From contig NZ_JACHBL010000001.1 in NCBI RefSeq assembly GCF_014200305.1, positions 1,054,001-1,118,000 on the forward strand: 64,000 nucleotides of DNA. Direction: 5' to 3'. Shown piece after piece: positions 12,539 to 33,668 of the stretch; positions within the stretch are counted from its first letter, which is position 1, and each line of letters opens with the position of its first letter. The DNA is from Neomicrococcus lactis. Its GTDB lineage: Bacteria > Actinomycetota > Actinomycetes > Actinomycetales > Micrococcaceae. The position numbers were made by a program, and so were the translations under genes. The notes beneath the pieces are model-generated. The model was not told where the DNA came from. It saw nothing but the letters and a program-made list of their open reading frames with translations, and ran no database searches.

Positions 12539-13564
12539 TTAGCCGTCGGTGCAGCCGATAGCTTCTGGATTCGCGATGCAGTCTTCTGCTACTAGGTATC
12601 GCTTGGTTTTCCAGACTTCCATCGACTCCGGAGCGCTGGAAACTCGAGCAACTCCGTCGATGGGAATCCAAGGTCCACCATTGACCGAAAACTGGCCCGT
12701 GTAGACCGTCGTCAGGTTGATCGGAAATGAACCGGTCTCTTCAAACTGATGCGAAGTTTCGGTCTCAACGTCGAATGGATCGCCACCGATCGCTTCTCCC
12801 GGTTTCCATGTCCGACGAGTTGTTCCGTCACCGTAATCCCAGATGTATTCAATGGGGATCGCTCGAACCCGCACGGGCTGCCCGAGAACGGTGGTGTTCA
12901 ACATCTTCACGCCGGCGTTTGCATAGATATTCGTGTGAGCAGTACGGAGCGTATTTCCACCTGTGTCCAGCTTGATCGTGGAAGGCGGGATAACGAGTCG
13001 CTGGAAATCAGCAGCCGTCACCACGATCACGACAGGGGGTGCAGTAGTTCCCGTTGCTCCAGCGTTTCCGCCAGCCGGAGCTGCAGCCGCTGTTGCTCCG
13101 CCAGTGCAACCATAAGAACCCGTCTCTGAAGCGACACCAGCAGCATCGATCGAAAGAATCGCGCCGTAGTACTCACCAGGAGGACAAACATCTGGCGCAG
13201 CTACCGCGCAGGCAATGCTGATGTTTCCGGAGGAATTATCGGCGCAGAGATGTCGCCAGGTATATGTTTCCTCCGTTCCACCGGCACTTTCGCTCGCTGC
13301 CGGTGCACCGGTATTGCCGACTGTATCGACGATGCTGTCTTTGGGTCTTGTGCCAGCTGCACCTGGGGAGACTTGAGTTTGATTCGAAAGGTGTCCACTA
13401 ACTTCGATGCCGTTATCGTGGGCGACACCACCCCATGAACTATCTCCGTTTTCAGCTACGGAACTGTTTGAAAAAGTGACAGCTATCCCAACGATGAGGA
13501 TCGAAACCAGAAGAAAACTTAAGAGGCGGTGCGCACGGTTTGGGAGCAATATGGTCGAATTCAT
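12539..13564 (-). CDS. secreted PKD-domain protein
   Basis: A 341-residue exported protein: an N-terminal hydrophobic signal (LLSFLLVSILIVGIAVTFSNSSVAE), a low-complexity Gly/Ala-rich centre, and a C-terminal beta-rich region with YIWDYGDGTTRRTWKPGEA and SHQFEETGSFPINLTTVYTG, the WDFGDG and YTV patterns of a PKD fold. Several Cys pairs (CADNSSGNISIAC, CPPGEYYG, C-x6-C at the C-terminus) suggest disulfides outside the cell. Its ATG overlaps the stop of the DUF6318 lipoprotein gene by four bases, so the two proteins probably act together. Function is unknown. Confidence 0.75.
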   Translation of the reverse strand: MNSTILLPNRAHRLLSFLLVSILIVGIAVTFSNSSVAENGDSSWGGVAHDNGIEVSGHLSNQTQVSPGAAGTRPKDSIVDTVGNTGAPAASESAGGTEETYTWRHLCADNSSGNISIACAVAAPDVCPPGEYYGAILSIDAAGVASETGSYGCTGGATAAAAPAGGNAGATGTTAPPVVIVVTAADFQRLVIPPSTIKLDTGGNTLRTAHTNIYANAGVKMLNTTVLGQPVRVRAIPIEYIWDYGDGTTRRTWKPGEAIGGDPFDVETETSHQFEETGSFPINLTTVYTGQFSVNGGPWIPIDGVARVSSAPESMEVWKTKRYLVAEDCIANPEAIGCTDG

Positions 13565-14256
13565 TTTTTGTATTCAACGCCAGCGATTGACTTTATGCCC
13601 AAGTACTTCCACGAGCCGTTGTCCCAGTATGAATAGGACTCAAAATGATCCTTACTAGCTGGACGATCAGCTTCGGGGACGTGACCGTGACTCTGATAGA
13701 CCGTACGCGCCCGTTGATCAAGTTCAACAAGTGCATGGATGTAACCGCCTGGTGTCTTATTCATCTGGGTATAAAGCGTGCCGATATGCGCGTCGCCGCC
13801 AGTCATCCACGCTTTACGATCTGAAAACTGGTCGATCGACTTTTTTCGTTCCTCACAAAATGCACTGTCTTCAATACAAAGCGCCATCATTTGCTTGGTG
13901 TCGCCGGTTTTTTGCGCGTAGTTGTGAACCTCGAACCAGTACCTCGTAAACGCCTCCAGACCCTTAGCCGAATGCTCTTTCGCTTCCTTCGGCATGACAG
14001 GCTCCGGAATGTTCTTCGCCGGCGAAGTTGGCGTGGCTTCTTGCGGCGAAGCAAAAGCGGTGCTGGAAGAAGCGGCACTGGATGCAACCCCGGAAGACAA
14101 AGCACTCGCGTGACTTGAACCATTCGATGCAGCGCTGGTTGGGTTCTCCCCGTTCGCACTGGCGCTGCACCCGGTCAGGGCCACAGCACCACAAAGTGCA
14201 AGTACAGAACCAATAGGCACGAAATTCTTGCTGGCCGCATGTTTTAGAGACGTCAC
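13561..14256 (-). CDS. DUF6318-like lipoprotein
   Basis: A 231-residue lipoprotein: lipobox LTGC at residues 27-30, then a Ser/Ala/Thr-rich tether, then a compact domain starting GLEAFTRYWFEVHNYAQKTGDT and including CIEDSAFCEERKKSI. This resembles the actinobacterial DUF6318 family, whose role is not known. The GTG start at 14256 follows a strong GGGGAGGGG Shine-Dalgarno. It is the first gene of a two-gene unit with the PKD protein; a perfect DnaA-box sequence lies 70 bases upstream. Confidence 0.75.
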   Translation of the reverse strand: MTSLKHAASKNFVPIGSVLALCGAVALTGCSASANGENPTSAASNGSSHASALSSGVASSAASSSTAFASPQEATPTSPAKNIPEPVMPKEAKEHSAKGLEAFTRYWFEVHNYAQKTGDTKQMMALCIEDSAFCEERKKSIDQFSDRKAWMTGGDAHIGTLYTQMNKTPGGYIHALVELDQRARTVYQSHGHVPEADRPASKDHFESYSYWDNGSWKYLGIKSIAGVEYKK

Positions 14257-14325: not shown

Positions 14326-14334
14326 TTATCCACA
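14326..14334 (+). other. isolated DnaA-box sequence (TTATCCACA)
   Basis: A perfect TTATCCACA match in the 200-bp gap upstream of the DUF6318 operon. There is no second box nearby and no AT-rich unwinding region, so it is not an origin. It could be a DnaA regulatory site or chance. Confidence 0.35.
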
Positions 14335-20656: not shown

Positions 20657-21133
20657 TCATTGTTCGAGATGCACTCGCGCATCTGACTCAACGCTGACGG
20701 TCACGCCTTCCGGGACAATCCAGTTGACTAGCGGCGGGTGAACTCGAGCGCTGAGTTTAAGGTGCGCGGTGCGCCCGTCCGGACTGGCCGAGGCTTCTTG
20801 AATACTCAAACCAGAAAAGTAGGTACCCGCTCTCGTTTGAGAAAGGTACTTAGCAGCGGACTCTCGGACGGTTGCATCTGTCAGTTTGAGGCTTAGATCT
20901 CCGCCGCTCAGTTGGACCAGATAGTCATCGGCAGCAGCTGTGGACGCGCCATCGGCGACTCCAAGAAGACGCCTGGCCTGACCGTTGATCTGGGTGGCTG
21001 CCAGCATGACGGTCACAGCCAAGAGAGCAACAGCGATCAGACCAATGATCAGCGGTGTCGCTTGACCAGATTCATTGGTACCCACTTCGCCGTTGCAGTG
21101 CTCATTAGTGTCCGTCTTTTGGGGTTGCATCAT
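20657..21133 (-). CDS. TadG/Rv3654c-like pilus-associated protein
   Basis: A 158-residue protein with a single N-terminal membrane segment after ESGQATPLIIGLIAVALLAV and a predicted extracytoplasmic domain. It resembles the small TadE/TadG-like proteins that close actinobacterial tad loci (as in the Mycobacterium Rv3654c neighbourhood). The position +5 Glu of true pseudopilins is missing (GQATPL). Its start overlaps the preceding TadE gene by four bases, so it belongs to the pilus operon. Confidence 0.72.
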   Translation of the reverse strand: MMQPQKTDTNEHCNGEVGTNESGQATPLIIGLIAVALLAVTVMLAATQINGQARRLLGVADGASTAAADDYLVQLSGGDLSLKLTDATVRESAAKYLSQTRAGTYFSGLSIQEASASPDGRTAHLKLSARVHPPLVNWIVPEGVTVSVESDARVHLEQ

Positions 21134-21561
21134 CCGAACCGATCTACTCGGTGCGTTGCCTCTGAGCTGGTGGTCATGACGCTAGCTCCCACACCTTCCG
21201 GCAACATCGGCAACGGAACGTTGATATGAACTGAGACTGTGACGGTGCTTCCCGGCTCTAGACATGCTTCTGAACAAGAAATCGACGTGGTCGCATTTTC
21301 AGCCGGAACGCCCATATTCGTCAGTGCTGTTGAGACAGCGGAGGAGGCTCGTGCTCTTGCTTCTCCCTCATTTTCTGCGCCAACAAACACCTTGGCTGCG
21401 TGATCAGCCGCACCGATAGCCGCGAGTGAGGACGCTTGAAGCTGAGCGACGGACAGAATGACGTAAATGATGGGGATCATCAGACCTATGGAAAGGAAGA
21501 TGAATTCGACAACAGCCGACCCTTCTTCGTCGTCTCGTAGTCGCTCCGCTAGTGACATCAC
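21130..21561 (-). CDS. TadE-family minor pseudopilin (second)
   Basis: A 143-residue protein with a type IV pilin-like N-terminus: DDEEGSAVVEF followed by a hydrophobic helix (IFLSIGLMIPIIYVILSVAQL), fitting prepilin peptidase cleavage after Gly with Glu at +5 and Phe at +6. The rest is a predicted extracytoplasmic domain with one Cys pair (CSEAC). It overlaps both neighbours by four bases. Confidence 0.8.
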   Translation of the reverse strand: MMSLAERLRDDEEGSAVVEFIFLSIGLMIPIIYVILSVAQLQASSLAAIGAADHAAKVFVGAENEGEARARASSAVSTALTNMGVPAENATTSISCSEACLEPGSTVTVSVHINVPLPMLPEGVGASVMTTSSEATHRVDRFG

Positions 21562-21989
21562 TCGTACCTGACAGCCTCTCCCACCACGCTGATCTCTCCG
21601 CCGACGGAGAAAAACCCCAACAAAGGGAATCCCGCAGAAATGTGAATCTGAAGGCCCGGCTGTCCCCCGACACTGGTTTCTTGGGCCCCGATGTTCGCGG
21701 CGAATCCAGATCCGAGCGACGTGCTGAGAAGCTCGCGAGTCCGCTGCGAGCCATCTGAGGCGTTTCGGTCTGCAAGAGTTCCGTAGCGCGCTCCGGTTGC
21801 AGCGGCATCCAACATGACGTTTCGGACGTGAAGAACCAGCGTTAGCTGAAGGATTGAGATGAAGAGGGCAATGATGAGCGTGCTTACCATGACGAACTCA
21901 GGGATGCTTGATCCCTCTTCATCTCGAATCGCGAGGTGCCTGTCTGCTCGCTTTGCAAAGAGAGAACGAGGAGCCTGAATCTTCATCAC
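21558..21989 (-). CDS. TadE-family minor pseudopilin (first)
   Basis: A 143-residue protein with DEEGSSIPEFVMVSTLIIALFISIL near the N-terminus: Gly cleavage site, Glu +5, Phe +6, then the pilin helix. These proteins prime or stabilise Flp pili in Tad systems. It follows the pilin gene by 21 bases and overlaps the next tadE by four bases. Confidence 0.8.
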   Translation of the reverse strand: MMKIQAPRSLFAKRADRHLAIRDEEGSSIPEFVMVSTLIIALFISILQLTLVLHVRNVMLDAAATGARYGTLADRNASDGSQRTRELLSTSLGSGFAANIGAQETSVGGQPGLQIHISAGFPLLGFFSVGGEISVVGEAVRYE

Positions 21990-22010
21990 GTTTTGGAGCG
22001 AACAGGGTGT

Positions 22011-22244
22011 CTAGCCCAAGCCCGCTACGTTGTCGATGGCCTGGTTGAAGAGCTGGATCAAACGTGGTCCGGCGATGGCCAAGAGACCGGCAACGAGCAA
22101 TGCGGACATGATTGCCAACATCACCCAGCCCGGCACGTCGCCGCGTTCCTGGGTGCGAACTTCGTTCGAGGTTCCCTCGATAAATACTCGGATAGAAGCA
22201 AGTACTGCTAGGAATGCGACTGACAACTTTTGAAACGTAACCAT
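22011..22244 (-). CDS. Flp-like pilin (major pilin candidate)
   Basis: A 77-residue protein whose C-terminal half is a single hydrophobic helix after QERGDVPGWVMLAIMSALL. Size and position (between tadC and tadE) fit the Flp pilin. If Gly is the cleavage site, +5 and +6 are Trp and Val instead of the usual Glu and Tyr, as in a divergent actinobacterial pilin class. GGGGGA lies 6 nt before the ATG, a strong Shine-Dalgarno that fits a highly expressed pilin. Confidence 0.7.
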   Translation of the reverse strand: MVTFQKLSVAFLAVLASIRVFIEGTSNEVRTQERGDVPGWVMLAIMSALLVAGLLAIAGPRLIQLFNQAIDNVAGLG

Positions 22245-22579
22245 GATGGTCCCCCGTGGTTTCTGATGGTGTGAGAGCAGTAAATTGATGTGGTTTCTGA
22301 AGTGGATGCGTGGCGTATTTGCCAGACTTCACGAACCTATCGATCAAAGGTTAAGTTTTGGCAAACTAATAAATAATCTTCGGCAACTAAGTGGTTGGTT
22401 CGCGTGAATTATGGGCATTTAGCCATACCCACGCGCTGACGTTCATAGGCTATTGAAGAAATCGAACTCGCGCTTGAGGAACTCTAAAACTGTGGATAAG
22501 TCACTTTCCGACTTCGGTTCACTGCCCCTGCGCGTGAAACAGTCCCCCTGCGATGTAGCTAAACAGCATCGGCAACTTC
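22245..22579. other. 335-bp gap between tadC and the pilin gene
   Basis: No plausible gene is seen. The middle is AT-rich (about 22340-22400) and probably holds the promoter for the pilin-tadE unit on the minus strand; TTGCCA with TAGGTT 19 nt later is one weak candidate. A perfect DnaA-box sequence TGTGGATAA is at 22491-22499. The gap suggests the pilin genes form a transcript separate from cpaF-tadBC. Confidence 0.5.
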
Positions 22580-23518
22580 TTAGAAGCTGAAGTCAAACAA
22601 CGTAATTCCAGGGAAGACCGCGAAGATGACCGTCAGCGGAAGAATTCCGAAGACCACGGGAAAGAGCATGCTGAGCTCCTTCTTGCCGGCCGTTTCCATG
22701 AGTTCGCGTTTGGCCGCATCTCGCACATCTTGCGCTTGGTCACGCATGACCTGAGCCAAAGGTGTTCCACGATCAGTGGCCACCAGCATCGCATCGACAA
22801 AACGCGTCATGATGTCCTGATCCACACGCTTGGCCATTGATCTGAGTGCTTCACCTAAACCTCGTCCGGACCGAACGTCTGCCAGCACTCTTCCGAACTC
22901 TTCAGAAAGTTCGCCGTCGGTGCTTCGCCTGACTCGTTCGAGTGCTCCAAGCGTGGACTCTCCCGCAGCAACGGATAGCGCCATCAATTCGGCGACGTTG
23001 GGAAACTGCCCCAGGATCTTCTGGGCGCGGCGAGAAATGGTCTCCCCCAACCACCAGTCCCTGAGCAAGAAGCCGCAGATGGGCAAACCAATGACGAGCA
23101 CGAGCGAGAGCATCGGGTTGAAGTTCTGATTGGGGACCGAGACGATCGTGAAGAAGATCGCTAGCCCCAGTCCGATGCCTGCCCACATCAACTGCTGGGC
23201 ACGGAACTCGGAGACTGAAAGTTCTAGTCCAGCCTTTGCGATCCGCCGTTTGAGCTGTTCGCCCATCGGACTTATGCCCGACGACCGGCGAATCAGGTCC
23301 TGAACGAATGGGGCAAGAATTCGACCTAGCGGTCCGAATGATCCGCCCACGTCGCGACTGCTGAGCAACGCGGAGTGCATTCTGCCGGCACGAAGTTGGG
23401 GTGCGATTCTGTCCGCAAAAGTTGACCGACGGAAGCGTGGAATCCGTGTCAGGAACAGAAACAGACCAGACCCAAGACCAAGACCGCACAGCAGCCCGGC
23501 AAATTCGTTTGCGCTCAC
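22580..23518 (-). CDS. tadC: type II/IV secretion inner-membrane protein TadC
   Basis: A 312-residue GspF/TadC-family platform protein. It has an N-terminal membrane segment, two central segments (about residues 110-150), the cytoplasmic helical domain with LMALSVAAGESTLGALERV and GRGLGEALRSMAKRVD, and a C-terminal segment (LSMLFPVVFGILPLTVIFAVFPGI). Together with TadB it anchors the CpaF ATPase and drives pilin assembly. The start overlaps the tadB stop by four bases. Confidence 0.85.
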   Translation of the reverse strand: MSANEFAGLLCGLGLGSGLFLFLTRIPRFRRSTFADRIAPQLRAGRMHSALLSSRDVGGSFGPLGRILAPFVQDLIRRSSGISPMGEQLKRRIAKAGLELSVSEFRAQQLMWAGIGLGLAIFFTIVSVPNQNFNPMLSLVLVIGLPICGFLLRDWWLGETISRRAQKILGQFPNVAELMALSVAAGESTLGALERVRRSTDGELSEEFGRVLADVRSGRGLGEALRSMAKRVDQDIMTRFVDAMLVATDRGTPLAQVMRDQAQDVRDAAKRELMETAGKKELSMLFPVVFGILPLTVIFAVFPGITLFDFSF

Positions 23519-24369
23519 TTGAGGATCCTTTCCTCGTCAGGCAGTTCGCCAAGTCGGATCATGAGCTGATAGCAGACCACCGAGACAATGAGTCCGCTGA
23601 TCAGCACCAACCCGCCGAAGCCACTCGAGTAAGCTTCAGCGACTGGCCGTTGAGTGGACATCAACAACAGAACAATCCATGGCGCTGCCACCGAAAGTCT
23701 GGCGGCATTCACGGTCCACGACTGACGTGCCTCCAACTCCCCACGCGTTCGAACGTTGTCGCGGAGAAACTGTGCGAGTGTCGTCAGCATGTGTCCCAAG
23801 TCGGACCCACCAACCTCACGTGTCAGCTTCAACGCGCTCACGATCTTGTCGGCGACGGGATCAGCAAGACGGATGCGCAGGTTTTCGATCGACGTATCGA
23901 AGCGACCGCTCACGCGATAGTCTCGCGCGAACTCGTCAAAGGCTGGCCGCAATGCCACGGGTCCTTGCTCGCTCAGCTGCGATAGCGCCTCTGGCAATGA
24001 CATTCCTGCTCGGACGCCGGAACGAAGATGATCCACAACGTCCGGCCATACTTCGCGCAGGCTCTTGGTGCGCTGATGTGCCCGCCAATTGACCAGAACC
24101 AACGGCAGAGCAGCCCCGAAGATGCCAAAGATCAGTGAAATGAGCGGCGCGCCCGTGAAGATGAAGACCACCAGCATCGTGATGAAGCTGGCGATTCCGC
24201 AGGCCATCATGAGCCCAGATGGCGTGACATTGTCCAATCCGGCTCGGAGCAAGAGATTTCGGACTCGTTGGCTCTTTGCACGCGTCGACTCGGGCTGAGG
24301 CTCGTGCCAAAAGGACCAATAGACAAGAAACAAACCTAGGCCGAGGGTGAGTCCAAGTAAGGCACTCAT
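23515..24369 (-). CDS. tadB: type II/IV secretion inner-membrane protein TadB
   Basis: A 284-residue partner of TadC with the same build: N-terminal hydrophobic segment, paired segments near residues 55-95, the cytoplasmic F domain with VVDHLRSGVRAGMSLPEALSQL and ALKLTREVGGSDLGHMLTTLAQFLRDN, and a C-terminal membrane pair. It overlaps cpaF by four bases. Confidence 0.85.
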   Translation of the reverse strand: MSALLGLTLGLGLFLVYWSFWHEPQPESTRAKSQRVRNLLLRAGLDNVTPSGLMMACGIASFITMLVVFIFTGAPLISLIFGIFGAALPLVLVNWRAHQRTKSLREVWPDVVDHLRSGVRAGMSLPEALSQLSEQGPVALRPAFDEFARDYRVSGRFDTSIENLRIRLADPVADKIVSALKLTREVGGSDLGHMLTTLAQFLRDNVRTRGELEARQSWTVNAARLSVAAPWIVLLLMSTQRPVAEAYSSGFGGLVLISGLIVSVVCYQLMIRLGELPDEERILK

Positions 24370-25646
24370 GCAGCCTCCCGCAGGATGGAGTTGACGTCAT
24401 ATCCAGCATGAGAGAACTTCTCGATGGGCACGTCCGCAGAGTCCTTGAGGACCAACTCACCATCTTCTCGCCCAAAAATGATGGAGGTTTCGATAATGCC
24501 GTTTTCGACTCGTTTGCCCAAGGCCAAGATCTCAGAGATTCGACGTTGTCCCGTCCGCGAGCGCTCACAGTGAATGACTAGGTCAATGCTGGAGGCGACT
24601 GTTTGCGTAACGAAGTGAGGCGAGATGTTGTCGCCGGCGAGCAGCGGGAGAGTGCAGATCTTGGTTACTGCGTCGTGTGCACTGTTGGCGTGCACACTTG
24701 CCATTCCAGGTAATCCTGAATTCAGTGCGATCAGCATGTCCAAGCTCTCCGCTTCGCGGACTTCGCCAACGATGAGCCGGTCCGGCCTCATGCGGAGGGA
24801 CTCTTTGACGAGCCGTCGCATGGAGATCTCGCCTTCGCCTTCAAGATTGGGCTGCCTGCACTGGAGGCCCACGACATCTCGAAGGGGCACTTGAAGCTCA
24901 AAGATCTCTTCCACGGTAATTACTCGTTCGCGACTTCCGATCGACGCTGATAGGCAGTTCAGCATCGTTGTCTTGCCGGCCTGAGTTGCACCGGACACCA
25001 GGATATTGAGCCCGGAAGCTACCGCAGCATCGAGGAAGGCCGCGGCTTGTGGAGTCATTGATCCCAGCTTCACGAGCTGCTTGAGCGAAGCTGCTCGCGC
25101 AATGAACTTTCGGATGTTGACTGCCCAGTCCTTCCGCGTGACATCCGGGATGGCGACGTGCAGTCGGGAACCGTCCGGAAGAGCCGCATCAACGAACGGC
25201 GAGCTCAGGTCCAGCCGTCGTCCAGAACTCTTGAGCATTCGCTCCACAAGAAGACGTACGTTCTCTTCTTCGAGCCGGATCGACGTCAGCTCGGAGGCGC
25301 CGCGCCGTGCGGAGAAGATCTCCTTCGGTGAGTTGATCCAGATTTCTTCAACTTCCGGATCATCAAGTAGTGGTTGGAGCGGCCCAAAACCTGCGACGGA
25401 ATCAAAGATCAGCTGAATAGTCTGATCAAAGTCGATGATTGGCGGCAGATTGCTGCGGAGCGTGCGCTCTTCGTAGTCCAGGGCAGCTGCCAAGATCAGG
25501 GATCGTACATCGTCCGGTTGTGTGAATGGATCCAGTCCGCGCCGACGCAGGATCTCGCGAACTTCCTCTTCCAACCATTCAATTGCTTCCACGTATCCCC
25601 CTCGATGGATTACCCGATCGTCGAGCAGCGAGTTCAGACCCGTCAC
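24366..25646 (-). CDS. cpaF: Tad pilus assembly ATPase CpaF/TadA
   Basis: The secretion ATPase that powers Flp pilus assembly. The 426 residues contain an N-terminal helical domain and the RecA-like core with Walker A SGATQAGKTT (about residues 217-226), the Asp box, Walker B RPDRLIVGEVRE, and the His box region ASVHANSAHDAVTK. It is the first gene of the cpaF-tadB-tadC unit. The usual upstream CpaE/Ssd gene is absent, its place being taken by the divergent FtsK-like gene. Confidence 0.93.
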   Translation of the reverse strand: MTGLNSLLDDRVIHRGGYVEAIEWLEEEVREILRRRGLDPFTQPDDVRSLILAAALDYEERTLRSNLPPIIDFDQTIQLIFDSVAGFGPLQPLLDDPEVEEIWINSPKEIFSARRGASELTSIRLEEENVRLLVERMLKSSGRRLDLSSPFVDAALPDGSRLHVAIPDVTRKDWAVNIRKFIARAASLKQLVKLGSMTPQAAAFLDAAVASGLNILVSGATQAGKTTMLNCLSASIGSRERVITVEEIFELQVPLRDVVGLQCRQPNLEGEGEISMRRLVKESLRMRPDRLIVGEVREAESLDMLIALNSGLPGMASVHANSAHDAVTKICTLPLLAGDNISPHFVTQTVASSIDLVIHCERSRTGQRRISEILALGKRVENGIIETSIIFGREDGELVLKDSADVPIEKFSHAGYDVNSILREAA

Positions 25647-25689
25647 TCGGTGTCACGCTAGATGACTATTTCGGATGCTCTCAACCCCA

Positions 25690-25703
25690 CACAGAATTCT
25701 GTG
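25690..25703. promoter_or_regulatory. 14-bp perfect palindrome between cpaF and the FtsK-like gene
   Basis: CACAGAATTCTGTG is a perfect palindrome in the 160-bp divergent promoter region. Two near-DnaA boxes follow (TGTGGACAA at 25700-25708 and TTATCAACA at 25722-25730). The position suits an operator acting on both transcripts, but no regulator can be named. Confidence 0.35.
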
Positions 25704-25806
25704 GACAAGTGAATGAACGAGTTATCAACAGAAAGTGAATTATTGGAAAATCAATCTTGAGTTCGCCCTATCCTCAAGCTAGGTCGTCACAGTGGAAAGG
25801 ATATTT

Positions 25807-28800
25807 GTGCGAACTTTGGTAATGATCCGCGATTCGGATCCGCGAACGAGCGATCCGCAGTTCGTGGAGATTGTTGGCGAGCATGCGCCTCTCCCCCGCG
25901 CGGCCCTTTCACTTGCACTGCAAAATGACGACGACGCAACTGACGAACACGGTCAGCTCTATTGGGGGCGTATTTCGGAATCTCTTCCTGATCCGTTGCC
26001 TTCAAGCGGTTTGATTGATCTAGATCTAGCGCCCGAGTGGAACTCCACTAGCCCGGCTGATTCTGACTCTTCGATCGGGTCATCGCGTTCTGACCGTAGC
26101 GTGTGTTTGCTGACAATTTCGGGACCTGACGCTGGTCGACGCTTTCATTTGCCACGGGGAACATTCACCGTTGGCCGTCGGGCAGCCGATATTTGTGTTC
26201 GGGACGTATCAATCCCGGCGCAAGCTGGCGTCGTCGTACATTCGGCGCAAGGATTCAGCGTAAGCGAATTCGAAACCACCACCGACGGCGTACAACCCGG
26301 AGCACCCAAGAAACGACACCTCGTCTTTGGAGAGTCATTTCGACTCGGCGAGACCGTCTTTCGGCTTGAAGACACCAGCACACCACTCGATGATGCTAAT
26401 GATCTGGGAAGCTGCGCGTGGCCGCCTCCGCCGCTCAAAGTGACGGGAGCTCAGCGTCCCGGTCGCCCATTCATGATGCTCACCGCAGCGCTTATGCCAG
26501 TAGTTCTGGGACTCATACTGGCCATGGTCATGGGTTCGTGGCTATTTATGCTTTTTAGCCTGATGAGCGTTGTGACAGGCGGCGTGCCGGCAATCCTTCA
26601 ATGGCGCGACAAGAAAAAGCTAGAGCGGCAGATCGACGACGCGCTGGCGCAGGATCGACGGCACAGAGAGCACTCGGCCCCCGATTGGGGAATGGTGAGG
26701 CGGAGTCTTACGTCCAATCCTGCGTCCTACTTCGCTTCTCCCCGCATGCCCTCACCACAAAGTGTTCCTAGCTCTGCGGCCGCAGTAGCAGGAAAGCGTC
26801 CGGCCGATGTTCAACCGTCCTGGGCCTTGCCGCTTGGAATGGCATCGGAAATTCATGTGTCCGTTGACCTTGGATCCGCCAATGAACTGCGAGCGCGAAC
26901 CCATGTGAACGTCCCGGCCATCGCGACTCTTTCTCCACTTTATCGAACACTTATTCGAGGTAGGCTTTCGAGAGCGACCGATGTTGCACGGGCGATGGTG
27001 GTGCGAGCCCTACTACTGGCACATTCTCACCGAATCAATGTCGGTGTTCTTGGCGACGGATCCTGGGTACCAACACCCGTCCGGGCGCTACGTTGCTTTG
27101 AGTACTTCAGCGATGTCCCACAACTCCTGCAGTTTCTTGAGGCAAGCCCTGACATCCCACTGATTCTCTTTACGAGTCGTGGAATGGACTGTGAGTATTT
27201 GGCTGGGTCCGCTATCTCGGCTCACCGTGACGCGTTAGCAAGATTGATCCTGGTTGAGATCGACCACGTGGAAGACGAAGCTTGGGGCTCAACGTCTCCA
27301 TCCAGCGATCAGGAATCAGGGGGTTTCGATGATCTGGACCACCGGTATTCACACGAGATACTGGTGGATTTGGGGGTTTGGCGAGAAGAGACATCCAACG
27401 GTGAGACGCAGGACATCTTGACCGACGTCGACTTCGATGGCCTGTCATTCGAGACTGCCCAGGTACTGATCGAACATATGGCAATGATCGCCCTGCCCAG
27501 CACCGTTGGTGGCAGCACTGGTCGAGTTCTCGATTCAGGTACTGCCAGCGCGATGTTGGTTCAAAGTGGCGACAATGCGAATAATCACGCGGCTGTATCG
27601 ACGCATCAAACAGCGTCCTATTTGTTAGTCGATACCGGGACACTGCTTTCGGCGGACAGCGGCGCCACGAGACCTGACGACGTCCTATTCACGGGTGGTT
27701 CCGCATCACCCGATAGTGGATCAGTGGTCACCATCGACTTGGTGGCGGACGGCCCTCACATGTTGATTGCGGGCACTACGGGTTCGGGTAAGTCTGAGGC
27801 TCTCAAGTCCATGTTGTGGTCCATCGTCAATCGCTATGCGCCAGAAGAGGTCTCCTTCTTGCACTTTGATTTCAAGGGTGGCTCCACGCTTGGCGAATTC
27901 GCCTCCCTTCCCCACACCATCTCCGTGGAGACTGACCTGACACATGCAGATGCCGCTCGCATGTTGCGTGGAATCAGAGCGGAGTTGTCCCGCCGCGAGT
28001 CGATCTTCCAAGGGATTGGGGCCAGCGACTATTCGAGCTGGCGTTCGCTCTCGGCCGGTGACGACTCGCTTCCTCATATTGCCCGCTTGGTCATCGTTGT
28101 TGATGAGGTGCGCATGTTGTTGTCGGCGCTGCCTGAGGCAATGATGGAATTGGCGTCTATCGCCACGATCGGCCGTTCATTGGGAGTTCACCTCGTCTTG
28201 TCGACCCAACGCCCGCTGGGTGTCATCTCCCCTGAGATACGGGCCAATATTGGCGTGTGCGTGCTGCTGCGGGTCGCAAGTGTTCAGGAATCGCAGGACG
28301 TCTTGGGATCTTCGGCGGCGGTGTCTATTTCTCACAAGAATCCGGGCCGAGCGTTTATCAAGGCCGGCGCTACGGTTCCCCTACCTGTGCAGTTTCCCTC
28401 GCCACTCGGTGCTCGCAGGAGCTGGGTTATTCATCGATATGGCGCCAGGCTTGGTCCCCCTAGTGCGTCCCTCTTGCTCTCAAGCGAAAACGAAGAGAAG
28501 AGCCCGTACGAGCGCTGGCTTCGAACTCACGGACACATGCAGCATCGACGCGCACCGCAGACAGCCTTTCCTGCCAGACTGCCCGAATCAGTGCATCAGG
28601 AAGACCTCAACAACGTGGCGGCGCAAACTTCAGATGATTCGATGCCCTTCGAAGCAGGACTGGTTGAATCGAGCCCTAATCTTCTCGACCAAAGAGGACA
28701 CCTCGGATTGGGGATCGGCAACCACCCCACCCTGGGGCATCTAGAAGTTGTGGCATGGAATCCGGAGACGCTCTCCCGCTTCGCCATCATTGCGGGCCGT

Positions 28801-30267
28801 GATTCCGGCGCAGAAGAGTTGGCAGCCGGCCTCATCAATCAGCATCAAAGTATCGGCGGCACAACGTGCATTATCGACGGCAGTGGCCTGCTCGCTGGAT
28901 ATGAGAAATTGCGAACCGTATTCGCCTACGGATCCCTCGATGACGCGCTCTCAATTTCCGAGATCCTGAACCATCTCCTGAACGAACTCCAGACGGAGGC
29001 ATCACGACTTTCAGATTCAGATACAGCTACATCCTCCGACTCAGGTTTAGACTCCGAATCCGACTCGGCCCCACACATAGACCCTTTGTCGGGCGGTATT
29101 CGTCCCGCAGTTCGACGTCTGGTGGTCATCACCGGCTGGAGCCATATCCTGACGCGAGTCGGACCCCATGAGGCAGCAGCGCTCGAGCAAATGATGACGT
29201 CTCTCATGAGAGCTACCAGTGCTCAGAACCTGGCAATCGTCGCGATCGGAGCCAGAGATCTCACCGGAACATCGCTATTCACTCTCCTGGAAACACGCCT
29301 CTATCTTCCGTTTGGTCTCGGGCCGGAAATCACCGCGTTGTGGCCACGGATCGTTGAAGTTCCCGAACATCGTGGACGTGGTGTACTCATGATTCCCGGA
29401 GAGAGTCCTCAAGGCCGCGAAATCCAATGCCTTCAGGCAAGCCCCGATGAGCTCGAAAGATCATCCATGCATGAGCATGCCAATCCCGCGGAAGTGCTCC
29501 GTGGACTTCCACGAAGAGTCTCCGGCGAAACAAGAGCGGCGATAGTTCATGACCTGCAGCTCAGTACTGAGCTCGCCACAGCGCAGACACATGGACTGTC
29601 GGAATCCGATGGACTCGTGTTGGGAGTCTCTTCGCCGGATGGTTCCCCTTTCACCTGGCATCCGAAACAGATCGGGTTGATCATCGGAGGACCTGGGAGC
29701 GGCAAGACCCGATTGCTGGAGAACATGGTGGACATGATCAACGGCGTATCGAAGAGTGCGGTCAACAAGAGCGAAACGAACGAGAAGAACTGGGCGGCTG
29801 AGAAGAGCGGTACTACGGAGAAGAACGCATCAGCTGAGAAGACCTGTTCAGCCGAGGAGACCTGTTCAGCCGAGGAGAAAGAGGCGGCAACTGAACTGAA
29901 TCGTTGCAAACTCGTCAACGGGCCCGATCTTGATGCCAACGACATTTCGCAGCTTCAAGACGCTACCCCGCGAATTCTGCTCGTCGACAACGCAGACATG
30001 GTCGAAGATTCGCTCAAACCAGCACTCGAACGATTAGTCGATTCGGGAACACAGTTGATCATGACCGTGAGCGCGACCTTCAAGTCAATTCAGCGCATTC
30101 CGTGTGCGCATCGCCAGCGAGGTGAAGGCAGCGAAATCTTGCTCAGCCCTCGGACTCCGCAAGAGGCCGACGTACTGGGATGGCACGGCTGTCCAGTTGA
30201 TCCTGTACCGGGTCGCGGAATTGTGAGATTCCACGGTGGGTTCAGACGTTTTCAGGCTTGGGGCTGA
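25807..30267 (+). CDS. FHA-FtsK/SpoIIIE multi-ATPase (EssC/EccC-like)
   Basis: A 1486-residue protein built like the motor of Gram-positive type VII secretion. There is an N-terminal FHA domain (about residues 95-190, with TFTVGRRAADICVRDVSI), two membrane segments (about 220-265), then RecA-like modules. Module 1 has Walker A AGTTGSGKS (about 655) and IVVDEVRMLL. Module 2 is degenerate (IIAGRDSGAEELAA, no GKS/T). Module 3 has GGPGSGKTRLL (about 1295) and ILLVDNADM. A low-complexity insert of EK/AE-rich repeats follows the third P-loop (about 1315-1360). The GTG at 25807 is chosen because GGAAAGG ends 6 nt before it; an earlier GTG at 25792 overlaps that site. No WXG100, EccB/D or EsaA-like partners are in the window. 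Confidence 0.85.
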   Translation: MRTLVMIRDSDPRTSDPQFVEIVGEHAPLPRAALSLALQNDDDATDEHGQLYWGRISESLPDPLPSSGLIDLDLAPEWNSTSPADSDSSIGSSRSDRSVCLLTISGPDAGRRFHLPRGTFTVGRRAADICVRDVSIPAQAGVVVHSAQGFSVSEFETTTDGVQPGAPKKRHLVFGESFRLGETVFRLEDTSTPLDDANDLGSCAWPPPPLKVTGAQRPGRPFMMLTAALMPVVLGLILAMVMGSWLFMLFSLMSVVTGGVPAILQWRDKKKLERQIDDALAQDRRHREHSAPDWGMVRRSLTSNPASYFASPRMPSPQSVPSSAAAVAGKRPADVQPSWALPLGMASEIHVSVDLGSANELRARTHVNVPAIATLSPLYRTLIRGRLSRATDVARAMVVRALLLAHSHRINVGVLGDGSWVPTPVRALRCFEYFSDVPQLLQFLEASPDIPLILFTSRGMDCEYLAGSAISAHRDALARLILVEIDHVEDEAWGSTSPSSDQESGGFDDLDHRYSHEILVDLGVWREETSNGETQDILTDVDFDGLSFETAQVLIEHMAMIALPSTVGGSTGRVLDSGTASAMLVQSGDNANNHAAVSTHQTASYLLVDTGTLLSADSGATRPDDVLFTGGSASPDSGSVVTIDLVADGPHMLIAGTTGSGKSEALKSMLWSIVNRYAPEEVSFLHFDFKGGSTLGEFASLPHTISVETDLTHADAARMLRGIRAELSRRESIFQGIGASDYSSWRSLSAGDDSLPHIARLVIVVDEVRMLLSALPEAMMELASIATIGRSLGVHLVLSTQRPLGVISPEIRANIGVCVLLRVASVQESQDVLGSSAAVSISHKNPGRAFIKAGATVPLPVQFPSPLGARRSWVIHRYGARLGPPSASLLLSSENEEKSPYERWLRTHGHMQHRRAPQTAFPARLPESVHQEDLNNVAAQTSDDSMPFEAGLVESSPNLLDQRGHLGLGIGNHPTLGHLEVVAWNPETLSRFAIIAGRDSGAEELAAGLINQHQSIGGTTCIIDGSGLLAGYEKLRTVFAYGSLDDALSISEILNHLLNELQTEASRLSDSDTATSSDSGLDSESDSAPHIDPLSGGIRPAVRRLVVITGWSHILTRVGPHEAAALEQMMTSLMRATSAQNLAIVAIGARDLTGTSLFTLLETRLYLPFGLGPEITALWPRIVEVPEHRGRGVLMIPGESPQGREIQCLQASPDELERSSMHEHANPAEVLRGLPRRVSGETRAAIVHDLQLSTELATAQTHGLSESDGLVLGVSSPDGSPFTWHPKQIGLIIGGPGSGKTRLLENMVDMINGVSKSAVNKSETNEKNWAAEKSGTTEKNASAEKTCSAEETCSAEEKEAATELNRCKLVNGPDLDANDISQLQDATPRILLVDNADMVEDSLKPALERLVDSGTQLIMTVSATFKSIQRIPCAHRQRGEGSEILLSPRTPQEADVLGWHGCPVDPVPGRGIVRFHGGFRRFQAWG
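29842..29877 (+). repeat. 18-bp tandem duplication inside the FtsK-like gene
   Basis: ACCTGTTCAGCCGAGGAG occurs twice in a row (one base different from a third upstream AACGCATCAGCTGAGAAG-type unit). It encodes the TCSAEETCSAEE part of the low-complexity insert in the third ATPase module, a likely site of replication slippage. Confidence 0.65.
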
Positions 30268-30785
30268 ATACCGTCCAAGTTCGCGGCAAAGAAGTCATGG
30301 GTCGGCTTGATAAACATCAACAACAAGGCCAACGCCGCAGGAATGATCAGGAACAGACCAATCGGCCAGTCGAGAGAGAACAAGATTTGCGTGGCAAGAA
30401 TAGTTTGAAAGAGGTGCCACATCACGATGAACGCCCGAGTCCAACGTCGGGCCTTCAAGATCTTGAGTCCTGACAGTGCAGCAAACACTCCGGCAGCGAG
30501 TGGCAACAGCAAGAAGAAAATTCGACCACCCATCGGGATGGGGCTGCTGGACGAGAAATCCAGAACATACAAAACGACAACTGCCAACATGACAAGCGCC
30601 ATGAGGAACATGACGCCCGAAATCACCTTGACCGTCCACGGTGGGCTCATCAGAAGCTGCTCTTCTTGCCGAGCACCACTTGGCTCTGCCGAGTTTTGCC
30701 GGGCACCATGTGCTCCAAGCCCGTCGCGATTCGCCTGCACACGGCTATTCGGCTTCTTTGTCGAATTATTCTCCTGAGAACTCAC
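30252..30785 (-). CDS. four-helix membrane protein of unknown function
   Basis: A 177-residue protein: about 45 polar N-terminal residues, then four hydrophobic segments (about 52-72, 86-105, 115-133 and 138-158) and a short tail. I do not recognise the family. Its 3' end overlaps the convergent FtsK-like gene by 16 bp, so the two units constrain each other's ends. Confidence 0.7.
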   Translation of the reverse strand: MSSQENNSTKKPNSRVQANRDGLGAHGARQNSAEPSGARQEEQLLMSPPWTVKVISGVMFLMALVMLAVVVLYVLDFSSSSPIPMGGRIFFLLLPLAAGVFAALSGLKILKARRWTRAFIVMWHLFQTILATQILFSLDWPIGLFLIIPAALALLLMFIKPTHDFFAANLDGIQPQA

Positions 30786-30948
30786 ACTGAAAACCTACCC
30801 GAACTTCCTGACAGCCACTGTGGAAACGGCCGGAATTCTAAGCCCAAAGATGCTCTGGTGACAAAAACCACACAAAGATTCAACATATTTCTGTGTGAAA
30901 CCTCTTGATTACATCATCAAGTCATGAAACCCTAGTTTGGCAGTTGAC

Positions 30949-30969
30949 GCGGGAGTAGCAAGCTCCCGC
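30949..30969. other. small hairpin upstream of the whiB1 promoter
   Basis: GCGGGAG (30949-30955) pairs with CTCCCGC (30963-30969) around TAGCAAG, followed on the plus strand by TTTCGCG. It lies before the candidate whiB1 promoter and could insulate it from read-through. Confidence 0.35.
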
Positions 30970-31011
30970 TTTCGCGTGTTTGAGGCAATGTGCATCAAAC
31001 AAACGAACTCC

Positions 31012-31038
31012 GGGAATACTTCGGAGCAACTATGAGTT
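31012..31038 (+). promoter_or_regulatory. SigR/SigH-type promoter of whiB1
   Basis: GGGAAT (31012-31017), exactly 18 nt, then GTT (31036-31038), about 48 bases before the whiB1 start. This equals the consensus GGGAAT-N18-GTT of the thiol-oxidation sigma factor SigR (Streptomyces) / SigH (Mycobacterium, Corynebacterium). The whiB1 orthologues wblE and whcE are known members of those regulons, which supports the call. Confidence 0.7.
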
Positions 31039-31085
31039 TTCACGTTCTACGTAATTACTGACCATCAGAAGGAGCACTAACGAGC

Positions 31086-31334
31086 ATGAGTTGGCGTAGC
31101 CGCGCAGCATGCCTGGACAAGGATCCCGAACTCTTTTTCCCTGTGGGAAACACGGGTCCGGCATTGCTCCAGATTGAAGAAGCTAAAGCTGTTTGTCGCA
31201 CGTGTCCTGTCATTGACACTTGCCTCCAGTGGGCCATCGAAACCGGCCAGGACGCGGGCGTCTGGGGCGGAATGAGCGAAGACGAGCGTCGCGCTTTGAA
31301 GCGTCGCGCTGCCCGCGCACGCCGCGCTTCTTAA
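31086..31334 (+). CDS. whiB1: WhiB1-type iron-sulfur transcription factor
   Basis: An 82-residue Wbl protein. The four cluster-binding cysteines are seen (C9, then C-R-T-C and a further C in VCRTCPVIDTC), followed by the GVWGG turn and a basic C-terminal helix (ALKRRAARARR). WhiB1-type proteins bind a [4Fe-4S] cluster sensitive to nitric oxide and associate with the primary sigma factor. AGAAGGAG lies before the ATG. It has its own terminator, so it is monocistronic. Confidence 0.93.
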   Translation: MSWRSRAACLDKDPELFFPVGNTGPALLQIEEAKAVCRTCPVIDTCLQWAIETGQDAGVWGGMSEDERRALKRRAARARRAS

Positions 31335-31420
31335 GGGGTCAAACCCAAGGTTCATCCGTTTGAACCACACTTGAAAACGAATATAGCGATAGCTTCAACG
31401 AAGTTGTCGACTCGCTATCA

Positions 31421-31455
31421 GGGCGGGGCTGAACCGTGTTGCTTCAGCCCCGCCC
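31421..31455 (+). terminator. terminator of whiB1
   Basis: A 13-bp GC-rich stem, GGGCGGGGCTGAA (31421-31433) with its complement at 31443-31455, lies 87 bases past the whiB1 stop and 41 before the kinase start. It is followed by TTGCG only, so the U-tract is short. Confidence 0.7.
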
Positions 31456-31496
31456 TTGCGTATCTGGCTACTATCGGAAAGGTGGAAGAGAGAACC

Positions 31497-33668
31497 GTGG
31501 ATCCGCTTGAAGGCCAGCTCATAGATGGCCGGTACCGTGTTCGTCGTCGACTCGCTCGCGGCGGCATGTCTACCGTCTATTTGGCTACCGACGAACGTCT
31601 CCACCGTGATGTCGCCTTGAAAGCGCTCTACCCCTACCTCGCGGAAGACCAACGAGTGGTCCGTCGTTTCGAGGAAGAAGCCATCACTGCAGCAAAGCTT
31701 TCCCACCCTCATGTCGTCAACGTTCTAGATCAAGGCGTTGATGGGGACACCGCGTACCTCGTCATGGAATACCTGAAGGGCAAGACCCTCCGCCACGTCC
31801 TAGAACAACAAGGGCGTCTCACGCCGCGTCAAGCACTCAAGGTGCTCGAAGAAATTCTTGACGGACTCGCAGCCGCTCATAGCGCCGGACTCGTGCATCG
31901 CGACATGAAGCCGGAAAACGTTTTGCTGACCGAAACGGGTCGCGTCAAGGTGGCTGATTTCGGTTTGGCGCGCGCGGCATCCAACCACACGCAATCAGGA
32001 ACGCTCGTAGGAACAGTGGCGTACGTCAGCCCCGAACTCGTGACCGGCGGCAAAGCCGACAAGCGCAGCGACCTTTATGCCATCGGCATCATGCTCTTCG
32101 AAATGCTCACAGGTGATCAGCCATTCCGCGGCGAGAGCTCTATGTCCATTGCTTTCAAACACGTCAGCGAAACGGTTCCGCCGCCCTCACGATTGATTCC
32201 CGAGCTCTCTCAAGATCTCGACGAATTGGTGGAATGGTGCACGGCGAAGGATCCTGAAGCTCGACCCGTCGACGCGAGCGCACTCTTGGGCGAATTGCGT
32301 CATGTGCGCGCCGCCTTGAGCGAAGATCAGCTGGATCTGGGGGCTGCCGAGATTGCCACTTCGCAAAAAAATTACGACGCCGCAGCTGCCGCAGCCGCTC
32401 CAGTCTCGGTTGATCGTGACGTGGAGGAAAAGTTCGCAGGGTATTGGGATGATAGCGAGCAGGCGCCGTCGTACTCCGAAGAAGCGGACGTAGACGAGGA
32501 CGCGACCACCGTTATCCCCACGCACCACAACGAAACCCAAGCTTTTTCGCGGCTCGACGAACCGGACGTGGCGCCAAATCAGTACACCGAAATTATCGAT
32601 GCTCATGACATCCCGGCTCATGAGACTGGCGAGATTTCCGCGGTGACCAAAGCTGCGCCGGCCCCGCGGCCGCTCAGCCCAGCCGCTGCCGCGAAGCAAG
32701 CCAAGAAGGACGCGAAGATCGCGCAGCGCGAATGGAAGCGAGATGCGCAAAAGCCTCTCGTCAATCTAGACAAGAAGGGCTCGCGCGTTCGCAGGTGGAT
32801 CCTGGCGATCGTCCTGGTGATGCTCGTGGCGTTGGTGGCCGCCGCTGGCTGGTTCTTTGGCTTAGGGCCAGGTGCGCCGGTGAGTTTGCCGAGCGTATCG
32901 GGGCAAACCGTCGCGCAGGCGACGCAAACCCTCGACAACGTGGGGGTAGCAGCGCGCCCAAAAGAAGTATTCAGTGACGATGTAGAGCGCGGGCTCGTCG
33001 TCGGCACTGAGCCGAGTGATGGCACCACCATTCGCCGCTTCGAAGGCGCCGATCTCCTGGTATCTAAGGGTCCTGAACTCTTCGAAGTACCTAAACTTGC
33101 GCAATTGACCACTGCGGAGGCGAACGAGCAGCTCGATGAGCGGTCTTTAGCGCTCGGGAAAGTCACTGAGGAATATAGCGAGACGATCGACGACGGAAAG
33201 ATCGTCGAGCAATCTGTGAATGTCGGCACTCAAGTGCGTCGCGGCACGGCCATCAACGTCACCGTATCCAAGGGCCCTGCACCCGTTGCCGTTCCTGACC
33301 TCAGCGGTATGACGGTCGAGGAAGCGAGCGCCGCACTGGAAGAGATCGGGCTTTCGTTGACGGAAGACGGCGAAGAATTTTCCGCCAAGGTCCCAGCAGG
33401 CGACGTGTCCTCACAAGGTGTGAAGACGGGCGAGAAAGTGAATCGGGGAACCGAGATCCCGGTGACGGTTTCGAAGGGACCGCGCATGGTTGAAGTGCCG
33501 CGCGTGGTGGGACAGCAGCTCGACGAAGCGAGTGCCACCCTCGAGGAGCTCGGCTTCAAAGTAGAGGTCAAGTACCCGCTGGGCAACATCTTCGGAACCG
33601 TTCACGGACAGAGCGTTTTCGGTGAAGAGGTACCTGAAGGATCAACGATCGTTCTGACGGTGGTCTAG
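31497..33668 (+). CDS. PASTA-domain Ser/Thr protein kinase (PknB/Stk-like)
   Basis: A 723-residue membrane kinase. The cytoplasmic kinase domain (about residues 8-275) has the glycine loop (ARGGMSTVYLA), ATP-binding Lys (VALKALYPYL), catalytic HRDMKPENVLL, DFG and SPEL. A disordered acidic linker follows, then one membrane segment (about 433-456) and four PASTA repeats (about 460-723), which in this family sense peptidoglycan fragments and lipid II. The GTG at 31497 (MDPLEGQLIDGRY) follows GGAAGAGAG and matches the family start; an ATG at 31371 would run through the whiB1 terminator. The FHA protein at 48.8 kb is a likely substrate type for such kinases. Confidence 0.92.
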   Translation: MDPLEGQLIDGRYRVRRRLARGGMSTVYLATDERLHRDVALKALYPYLAEDQRVVRRFEEEAITAAKLSHPHVVNVLDQGVDGDTAYLVMEYLKGKTLRHVLEQQGRLTPRQALKVLEEILDGLAAAHSAGLVHRDMKPENVLLTETGRVKVADFGLARAASNHTQSGTLVGTVAYVSPELVTGGKADKRSDLYAIGIMLFEMLTGDQPFRGESSMSIAFKHVSETVPPPSRLIPELSQDLDELVEWCTAKDPEARPVDASALLGELRHVRAALSEDQLDLGAAEIATSQKNYDAAAAAAAPVSVDRDVEEKFAGYWDDSEQAPSYSEEADVDEDATTVIPTHHNETQAFSRLDEPDVAPNQYTEIIDAHDIPAHETGEISAVTKAAPAPRPLSPAAAAKQAKKDAKIAQREWKRDAQKPLVNLDKKGSRVRRWILAIVLVMLVALVAAAGWFFGLGPGAPVSLPSVSGQTVAQATQTLDNVGVAARPKEVFSDDVERGLVVGTEPSDGTTIRRFEGADLLVSKGPELFEVPKLAQLTTAEANEQLDERSLALGKVTEEYSETIDDGKIVEQSVNVGTQVRRGTAINVTVSKGPAPVAVPDLSGMTVEEASAALEEIGLSLTEDGEEFSAKVPAGDVSSQGVKTGEKVNRGTEIPVTVSKGPRMVEVPRVVGQQLDEASATLEELGFKVEVKYPLGNIFGTVHGQSVFGEEVPEGSTIVLTVV
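32372..32387 (+). repeat. dispersed element, copy inside the PASTA kinase linker
   Basis: TTACGACGCCGCAGCT, an exact core preceded by AAAAAAA, codes for NYDAAAAA in the disordered linker. A reversed degenerate copy (GGCGCCGTCGTACT) is at 32462-32475, about 75 bp on, within the same linker. Confidence 0.6.

Follow-up and report, generated by a model that had tools for sequence, protein, structure and literature searches.

A type VII secretion-type motor beside a Tad pilus operon is retained together with a distant WXG100 gene in the Micrococcaceae

The window analysed here is a 64,000-bp stretch (C1:1054001-1118000) of the 2.70-Mb genome of Neomicrococcus lactis (G000), in which an open reading frame (ORF) encoding a predicted EssC/EccC-type ATPase, hereafter the type-1 motor, lies divergent from a Tad/Flp pilus operon (Table 1). 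Across 120 Micrococcaceae genomes, the motor gene and a WXG100 gene located elsewhere in the chromosome are retained jointly and lost jointly. On balance, we favour the reading that the motor would be the inner-membrane engine of a minimal, dispersed type VII secretion system (T7SS) of the Micrococcaceae, with the WXG100 protein encoded beside mprAB and groEL as its partner, and that it would work with the Tad pilus in DNA uptake.

Results

Co-occurrence of the motor and a distant WXG100 gene

The sole PF06013 match (E <= 0.001) of G000 was found at C1:1653533-1653787, about 569 kb from the motor. Its product passes the curated models for the family (TIGR03930, 71.0 vs 44.85 bits; PF06013, 71.8 vs 27.3 bits) and ends in a YDDAE stretch, which we take to be of the YxxxD/E type. 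The gene has an MprAB-like two-component system on one side and, on the other, a DUF4031 gene and then groEL (mprA and groEL were recognised by eye). No WXG100 gene was found in the 64-kb window, and paired WXG100 genes at the motor locus were likewise not found. EccB (PF05108) and the ubiquitin-like YukD/EccD (PF08817) had no match in G000 or in its sister species G001, which was used for comparison; they are present in 1 and 36 of the 120 family genomes, respectively.

A profile of 29 type-1 motors and PF06013 were both run over the 120 genomes, doubtful genomes being settled locus by locus, and a tree of the first ATPase module (D1) parted type-1 motors from type-2 (L059, L061-L063) and type-3 (L057, L058) motors. 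PF06013 matches were obtained in 115 genomes. The type-1 motor was present in 107, and all of these (107/107) have a WXG100 match: in 104 it lies beside an mprB-like kinase gene and in G014 beside groEL, the neighbourhoods in G019 and G029 being outside the sample. Thirteen genomes lack the type-1 motor, eight of which (G027, G036, G054, G076, G077, G096, G113, G119) also lack the mprB-type WXG100 gene, and this joint absence spans three genera (g6, g27, g28). The mprB-like kinase locus was read in six of the eight (not G054 and G076) and held no WXG100 gene by tblastn; in G036, groEL adjoins this locus. For the resulting table (both genes, motor only, WXG100 only, neither: 107/0/5/8), the Fisher test gave p 1.5e-9, and with one frameshifted WXG100 gene (G103) counted as absent (106/1/5/8) p was 1.3e-8, the relatedness of the genomes being ignored in both. 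Since five of the pair-less genomes (G027, G054, G076, G096, G113) still hold motors on the type-2/3 side of the tree, these motors do not seem to substitute for the type-1 motor.

The counts depend on several assignments. Of 113 WXG100 loci read, 109 have an adjoining mprB-like kinase gene, defined as a tblastn match to the G000 MprB-like kinase at E <= 1e-10; the others are L077 (a second, motor-adjacent WXG100 gene of G040), L099 (G076), L102 (G014, with groEL but no mprB match) and L387 (G054). Motor matches in G038, G040, G066 and G086 are split or at contig edges only and were assigned to type 1 by score and genus. On reading of the loci, G014 was revised to type-1 positive (L303), and G054 and G076 to type-1 negative without an mprB-type WXG100 gene. 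L060, fetched as a second motor locus, was left out as no motor was called there.

The first-pass annotation had described the motor as standing alone in the window, with neither WXG100 nor EccB/D-like genes, and had offered two alternatives. The absences hold, that of EccB/D genome-wide, and a reduced secretion system with distant parts agrees with the tracking of the motor by a distant WXG100 gene. The orphan reading was rejected, as the WXG100 gene follows the motor across the 120 genomes.

Domain structure and class of the motor

ORF calling extends the motor to 25792-30267 (+), 25792 being an in-frame alternative start upstream. The start at 25807 is favoured, where the ATG of G001 aligns across a conserved intergenic region. 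The protein has an FtsK_SpoIIIE match at residues 637-838 (Pfam, E 7.9e-33), and its best PDB relatives by sequence are the T. curvata EccC and the mycobacterial EccC5. It displays the layout of the EssC/EccC (TsxC) superfamily, with three tandem FtsK-like ATPase modules (D1-D3) behind N-terminal membrane helices. AlphaFold models were obtained from family alignments (A5, 22 rows, mean pLDDT 77.9; A6, 18 rows, 73.5). Among the matches listed, the D2-D3 model aligned over both modules with EssC ATPases 2-3 (4lya, Z 22.4, root-mean-square deviation (rmsd) 5.3, 437 positions aligned) and with 4n1a (Z 21.4, rmsd 5.6, 440 aligned), and an FtsK chain, 6t8b, equalled 4lya in Z (22.4, rmsd 5.6), yet over one module (276 aligned). 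Because D2 and D3 match EssC/EccC ATPases 2-3 as a pair, we assign the motor to the EssC/EccC type and, judging from sequence and modelled fold, predict it to be a genuine member. The DNA-reading gamma domain of FtsK was not among the motor's 24 Pfam hits at E <= 0.1. A search of G000 with the motor (P0001) recovered the motor itself and one further locus, presumed to be FtsK (30% identity over about 250 amino acids); an initial contig scan with the window protein as query found no relative.

The FHA-like stretch scored 31.3 bits against Yop-YscD_cpl, just under the Pfam cut-off of 33.2. Its core, DPxLSRxHA, is kept by many motor orthologues in the alignment and lost in the window genus, where the position reads RDVSIPAQAG in G000 and RDPAMPTQAG in G001; phosphothreonine binding by this domain is therefore doubtful here. 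A full FHA-FtsK protein of type VII layout, as first annotated, is confirmed in its ORF and domains, the first of these as an FHA-like stretch.

D1 is the most conserved part of the protein, with 41-50% identity to the window motor among type-1 members beyond G001, compared with 14-28% in the regions flanking it; the N- and C-terminal parts are fast-evolving. Across 34 type-1 rows (window included), GK[ST] is present in the P-loop of D1 in 34/34, of D2 in 0/34 and of D3 in 21/34, the motif of D3 being altered or missing in 13 (6 rows are gapped there). The loss of the middle-module lysine reported in the first-pass annotation is consequently a property of all rows. Recent decay was ruled out as its cause, and since all 34 rows share the dead P-loop, it is not decay specific to G000. 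The FtsK/EssC-like fold of D2 persists in the AlphaFold model despite the lost P-loop. Given that D2 has lost its P-loop and that several genera have a changed P-loop, or none, in D3, D1 may be the sole obligatory ATP-burning module.

A DnaA-box-like word at motor and WXG100 gene starts

In the tadA-motor intergenic region, G000 and G001 show strong conservation around an inverted repeat, which contains TTGTCCACA (25700-25708, minus) and TTATCAACA (25722-25730, plus), both DnaA-box-like. A 14-bp palindrome had been singled out in this shared divergent region; it exists, is centred on an EcoRI site and shares bases with the conserved box, but it is changed in G001 and did not hold up as a conserved feature. 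It was rejected as the regulatory element because G001 retains the overlapping boxes and not the palindrome.

In 21 of the 33 stretches from relatives, the word TTRTCCACA was found between -300 and +60 relative to the called start of the motor. These stretches (657 kb) contain 33 sites, 23 of them at motor starts; at the same starts the reversed word and three permuted words were found in 0, 0, 1 and 0 stretches. Of 365 other gene starts in the stretches, 3 have TTRTCCACA. With five more found among 13 additional type-1 loci, the total is 26/46 motor loci of relatives. Motor starts of L049, L055, L066, L072, L291, L303 and L307 were probably called too far upstream, and sites inside such over-long ORFs were excluded from the counts. 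The word was found at 0 of 6 type-2/3 motor starts; beyond the named Micrococcaceae, 6 of 68 loci (L217, L220, L222, L226, L229, L242) have it close to the start of the motor. Distance and orientation vary at the motor, and the sites recur at the gene start across many genera.

Of the 109 WXG100 loci, 47 have TTRTCCACA in the 200 bp preceding the gene, and this interval holds 50 of the 51 sites in 364 kb of these loci; the reversed and three permuted words were found in 0, 0, 3 and 0 of 109. The five genomes that keep the WXG100 gene without a type-1 motor carry no such site there (0/5), which is suggestive, although the genomes are few. The word also occurs at the tadA start in L046 and upstream of the flp-like gene in the window (Table 1). 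Genome-wide, G000 has 46 copies versus 14 of the reversed word, and three of the 46 are between dnaN and dnaA. By comparison with the E. coli DnaA-box consensus, the word is most simply read as a putative DnaA box, at which DnaA may act. A sigma-70 scan of 25400-31400 found 2 promoters vs 2.4 expected, and Rfam gave no match in the window.

The same kind of site was observed at other genes. In the window, a DUF6318 lipoprotein gene and a gene with a weak PKD match (12539-14256, minus) have TTATCCACA upstream at 14326-14334, and both the pair and the site have counterparts in G001 (L133). Six DnaA-box-like 9-mers lie within or close to the spacer that separates an MFS transporter gene from a rhomboid gene (L158:1842-2803), about 15 kb from the dnaA-dnaN boxes, with a similar cluster in G001 (L175). 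Three related genes (L148, L155, L162) each have TTATCCACA nearby; Pfam, run on L155 only, identified DUF222/HNH.

Tad operon and neighbouring genes

The divergence of the motor from tadA noted at first pass was verified, and a Tad neighbour recurs in relatives. Out of 107 type-1 genomes, motor surroundings were read in 46, the genome of the window not being counted; best hit and spread over genera guided the choice, as did an uncertain class for 13 of them. A tad homologue was found in 17/33 and 10/13 stretches, i.e. 27 of 46. In L044, glf, GlfT2 and an O-acyltransferase gene are the divergent neighbours instead of tad, and other stretches look alike by gene sizes. A wider set of 78 actinobacterial loci with a called motor was gathered by means of a Micrococcus query and so is not random; two or more tad homologues occur within 8 kb in 22 of them. 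Seven Brevibacterium loci have a related motor downstream of the tad genes, in the same orientation.

Convergent with the motor is orf177, which had no Pfam or NCBIfam match; a homologue is present in 21 of the 33 type-1 stretches, and it is a candidate accessory part of the system. The PASTA kinase is a possible regulator and is not claimed as a component.

Table 1. Features of the window around the type-1 motor gene.
Feature	Position	Strand	Remarks
EssC/EccC-type motor (type-1 EssC)	25807-30267	+	1486 amino acids
FHA-like domain, residues 104-189	26116-26373	+	sub-threshold Yop-YscD_cpl match, alignment
Two predicted membrane helices, residues ~221-265	26467-26601	+	AlphaFold helices and hydrophobic sequence, by eye
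ATPase module D1, residues 637-858	27715-28380	+	Walker A GTTGSGKS at 27772-27795
ATPase module D2, residues ~922-1228	28570-29490	+	P-loop lost: GRDSGAEEL at 28795-28821
ATPase module D3, residues ~1280-1486	29644-30264	+	P-loop GGPGSGKT
Conserved inverted repeat, motor/tadA intergenic	25697-25733		arms 25697-25708 and 25722-25733
14-bp palindrome CACAGAATTCTGTG	25690-25703		present in G000, 2 positions differ in G001
tadA, Tad/Flp pilus ATPase	24366-25646	-	divergent from motor
Rest of tad operon	20657-24369	-	
tadB	23515-24369	-	Pfam
tadC	22580-23518	-	Pfam
TTATCCACA	22491-22499	-	upstream of flp-like gene; counterpart site in G001
flp-like	22011-22244	-	named by position and look, no Pfam match
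TadE	21558-21989	-	Pfam
TadE/F-like	21130-21561	-	named by position and look, no Pfam match
TadG-like	20657-21133	-	named by position and look, no Pfam match
orf177, small membrane protein	30252-30785	-	convergent with motor; four hydrophobic stretches by eye
WhiB-family regulator	31086-31334	+	
PASTA Ser/Thr kinase	31371-33668	+	near motor in several tad-type loci

Link to transformation in Micrococcus luteus

In M. luteus, tad-1 (Mlut_07500-07560) and tad-2 are required for Flp pili and transformation (PMC4322843). The gene Mlut_07490 is opposite in orientation to the adjoining TadA1 gene, Mlut_07500, and strain 2-R33, with the missense mutation G327E in Mlut_07490, shows transformability reduced at least 1000-fold (PMC8467076). 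Its authors annotate the protein as an FtsK/SpoIIIE DNA translocase or signalling protein, and the main text mentions neither type VII nor WXG100 (PMC8467076). As described there, Mlut_07490 shares with the window motor the divergence from TadA1, the GTTGSGKS P-loop, two membrane helices and the family. Since two loci of the Micrococcus genus g15, L065 and L067, have the same divergent motor/tadA arrangement, we identify Mlut_07490 as a type-1 motor by synteny, that is, by its divergence from tadA, its P-loop and its two membrane helices. L067 is a 100% match to L205 (Micrococcus sp. EYE_212); its G326, which may correspond to G327 of Mlut_07490, is invariant in three Micrococcus-genus sequences.

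Discussion

In the system that we favour, the WXG100 protein, with its YDDAE end, would engage the motor and be exported or prime it, D1 would power the system as the only obligatory ATP-burning module, and the pair would work with the Tad/Flp pilus in DNA uptake, as the Mlut_07490 mutant suggests. The motor, WXG100 and, in some genomes, tad genes may be under common control by DnaA or by another factor that recognises its site. More tentatively, and as a possibility that we rate as doubtful, Flp/Tad-dependent actinobacterial transformation may use a type VII motor and WXG100 as a third module in addition to the pilus and ComEA/EC, with the parts tied to the replication cycle via DnaA boxes at their promoters.

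Several observations weigh against this proposal. The motor is far under the NCBIfam cut-offs for EssC, EccCa and EccCb (195.6/778.4, 162.3/509.15 and 121.5/346.55 bits). Five of the 13 motor-less genomes (G002, G021, G048, G079, G091) keep the mprB-type WXG100 gene; all five are YukD-positive, as are none of the eight pair-less genomes. In G103 the motor is intact but the mprB-adjacent WXG100 gene is frameshifted mid-gene (L188:995-1278), a pseudogene or an assembly error. Twenty of 46 motor starts do not carry the exact 9-mer, nor do 62 of 109 WXG100 upstream regions, among them all five from g15. Of the 46 motor stretches, 19 yielded no tad homologue, and the Brevibacterium motors that are co-directional with tad fall outside the type-1 clade of the Micrococcaceae. 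The identification of Mlut_07490 is by synteny rather than by sequence, and the comEA/EC promoter is not directly repressed by G327E (PMC8467076). ComEC is present in 120/120 genomes, pair-less ones included; as a competence profile it gave no discrimination, and the motor-WXG100 pair therefore does not track the DNA-uptake channel. In the open-licence literature we found no published secretion, binding or DnaA experiment on the pair, and no paper joining DnaA box, type VII secretion and promoter. The tie to transformation is weaker than that between motor and WXG100, because ComEC is universal, 19 of 46 stretches have no tad homologue and the 9-mer has gaps.

The universality of ComEC, which extends to the eight genomes without the pair, would suit a working T7SS whose role, for example in the cell envelope or in competition, is unrelated to Tad and transformation, the adjacency being historical and the G327E effect indirect. 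The 19 stretches without tad and the glf, GlfT2 and O-acyltransferase neighbours in L044 point the same way. We regard this alternative as unlikely, though worth serious attention: linkage to Tad occurs in several actinobacterial families and in two orientations, the same 9-mer stands at the flp-like gene in the window genus and at the L046 tadA start, and the M. luteus mutant has a transformation phenotype. A little less plausible to us is that the motor is an FtsK-superfamily DNA pump that acts alongside Tad and ComEC to draw transforming DNA across the membrane, with an indirect association to WXG100. D1 is 24-30% identical to FtsK motors, D2 matches FtsK chains at the Z of EssC among the matches listed, the linkage to Tad recurs, the authors' annotation of Mlut_07490 includes a DNA translocase (PMC8467076), and a 2015 survey of M. 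luteus recorded ComEA, ComEC and DprA and no further recognised competence genes (PMC4322843). The model nevertheless matches EssC/EccC over D2 and D3 both, the motor is kept and lost jointly with the WXG100 gene, and the gamma domain is absent from the 24 Pfam hits.

That the boxes are DnaA titration or replication-control sites unrelated to expression, the co-occurrence of the genes reflecting shared ancestry, is improbable. Copies of the 9-mer between dnaN and dnaA and near genes such as that of L155 (DUF222/HNH) would fit such a role, and the relatedness of the genomes means that the counts overstate independence; however, two loci hundreds of kb apart in G000 carry gene-start sites across many genera, motor sites vary in distance and orientation, and the control words were found in only 0-3 loci. 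Least credible of all is that an ESX-type system has left the motor gene behind as an orphan in decay. The dead P-loop of D2, the altered or missing P-loop of D3 in 13 of 34 rows and the fast-evolving N- and C-terminal parts might suggest decay, but the Walker A of D1 is intact in 34/34 rows and type-1 matches are found in 107 of 120 genomes (four split or contig-edge only).

The favoured reading, a dispersed T7SS working with Tad, has practical consequences. It provides a candidate component for actinobacterial DNA uptake, and surveys of T7SSs by gene neighbourhood can miss systems whose WXG100 gene sits elsewhere. For the link between Tad and T7SS, the authors who described T7SSg and T7SSh state that shared regulation or function versus coincidence is not clear (PMC11217815). 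The question is directly testable, as a transformation mutant already exists beside M. luteus tad-1; the third-module reading, if true, would explain the co-location.

Other motors were seen beside those of type 1. The type-2 operons (L059, L061-L063, L300-L302), with FHA and kinase genes, are T7SSd-like and lack EccB and, where searched, YukD; L063, L301 and L302 have an adjacent WXG100 gene. A third motor type occurs in L057 and L058, in L057 beside genes for a coiled-coil-like protein of 1092 amino acids and one of 444. Bifidobacterium loci (L249, L250, L256, L257 and similar) encode short EssC-like proteins of about 650 amino acids, that of L256 lying between LytR-CpsA-Psr genes and whiB.

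Compared with known systems, the window motor resembles EccC of T7SSa/ESX and EssC of T7SSb in being a membrane-anchored motor with tandem FtsK-like modules and a WXG100 partner, but G000 lacks EccB and YukD/EccD and the D2 P-loop is dead. The type-2 EssC loci (L059, L061-L063) belong to the same superfamily, with FHA, and EccB is absent from their genomes; they differ in that the motor sits in an operon of its own that also encodes kinase, PP2C and FHA proteins, next to a WXG100 gene (Pfam on L063 only), in that the D2 P-loop is intact and in that the motor start lacks TTRTCCACA. Garrett, Higginson and Palmer (2024) describe T7SSc-j, and Micrococc-, Arthrobacter and Brevibacterium have no match in the main text (PMC11217815). 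Their T7SSg and T7SSh likewise have an EssC-type motor and WXG100 beside Tad genes, but they are confined to Bacillota, with motors lacking FHA and with WXG100 and the ubiquitin-like TsxB at the locus (PMC11217815); here, the motor is beside Tad genes in the window and 27 of 46 relatives, with no WXG100 or ubiquitin-like protein at the locus. T7SSd is found in Actinomycetota and has an FHA-bearing motor, one WXG100 and no ubiquitin-like protein, but its WXG100, kinase TsdD, TsdH and TsdI are clustered at the locus (PMC11217815), whereas the WXG100 gene of the present system is far away. The window motor bears FHA (by a sub-threshold match) and has no ubiquitin-like protein, and WXG100 is absent from its locus; a PASTA kinase is downstream in several tad-type loci, TsdH and TsdI were not identified, no TsdI model having been used, and a neighbour of 1611 amino acids in L044 is glutamate dehydrogenase. 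By its motor and its lack of a ubiquitin-like protein, T7SSd is the nearest known system, and what would be new is a minimal, dispersed, Tad-linked variant of the known T7SSs with a distant WXG100 gene.

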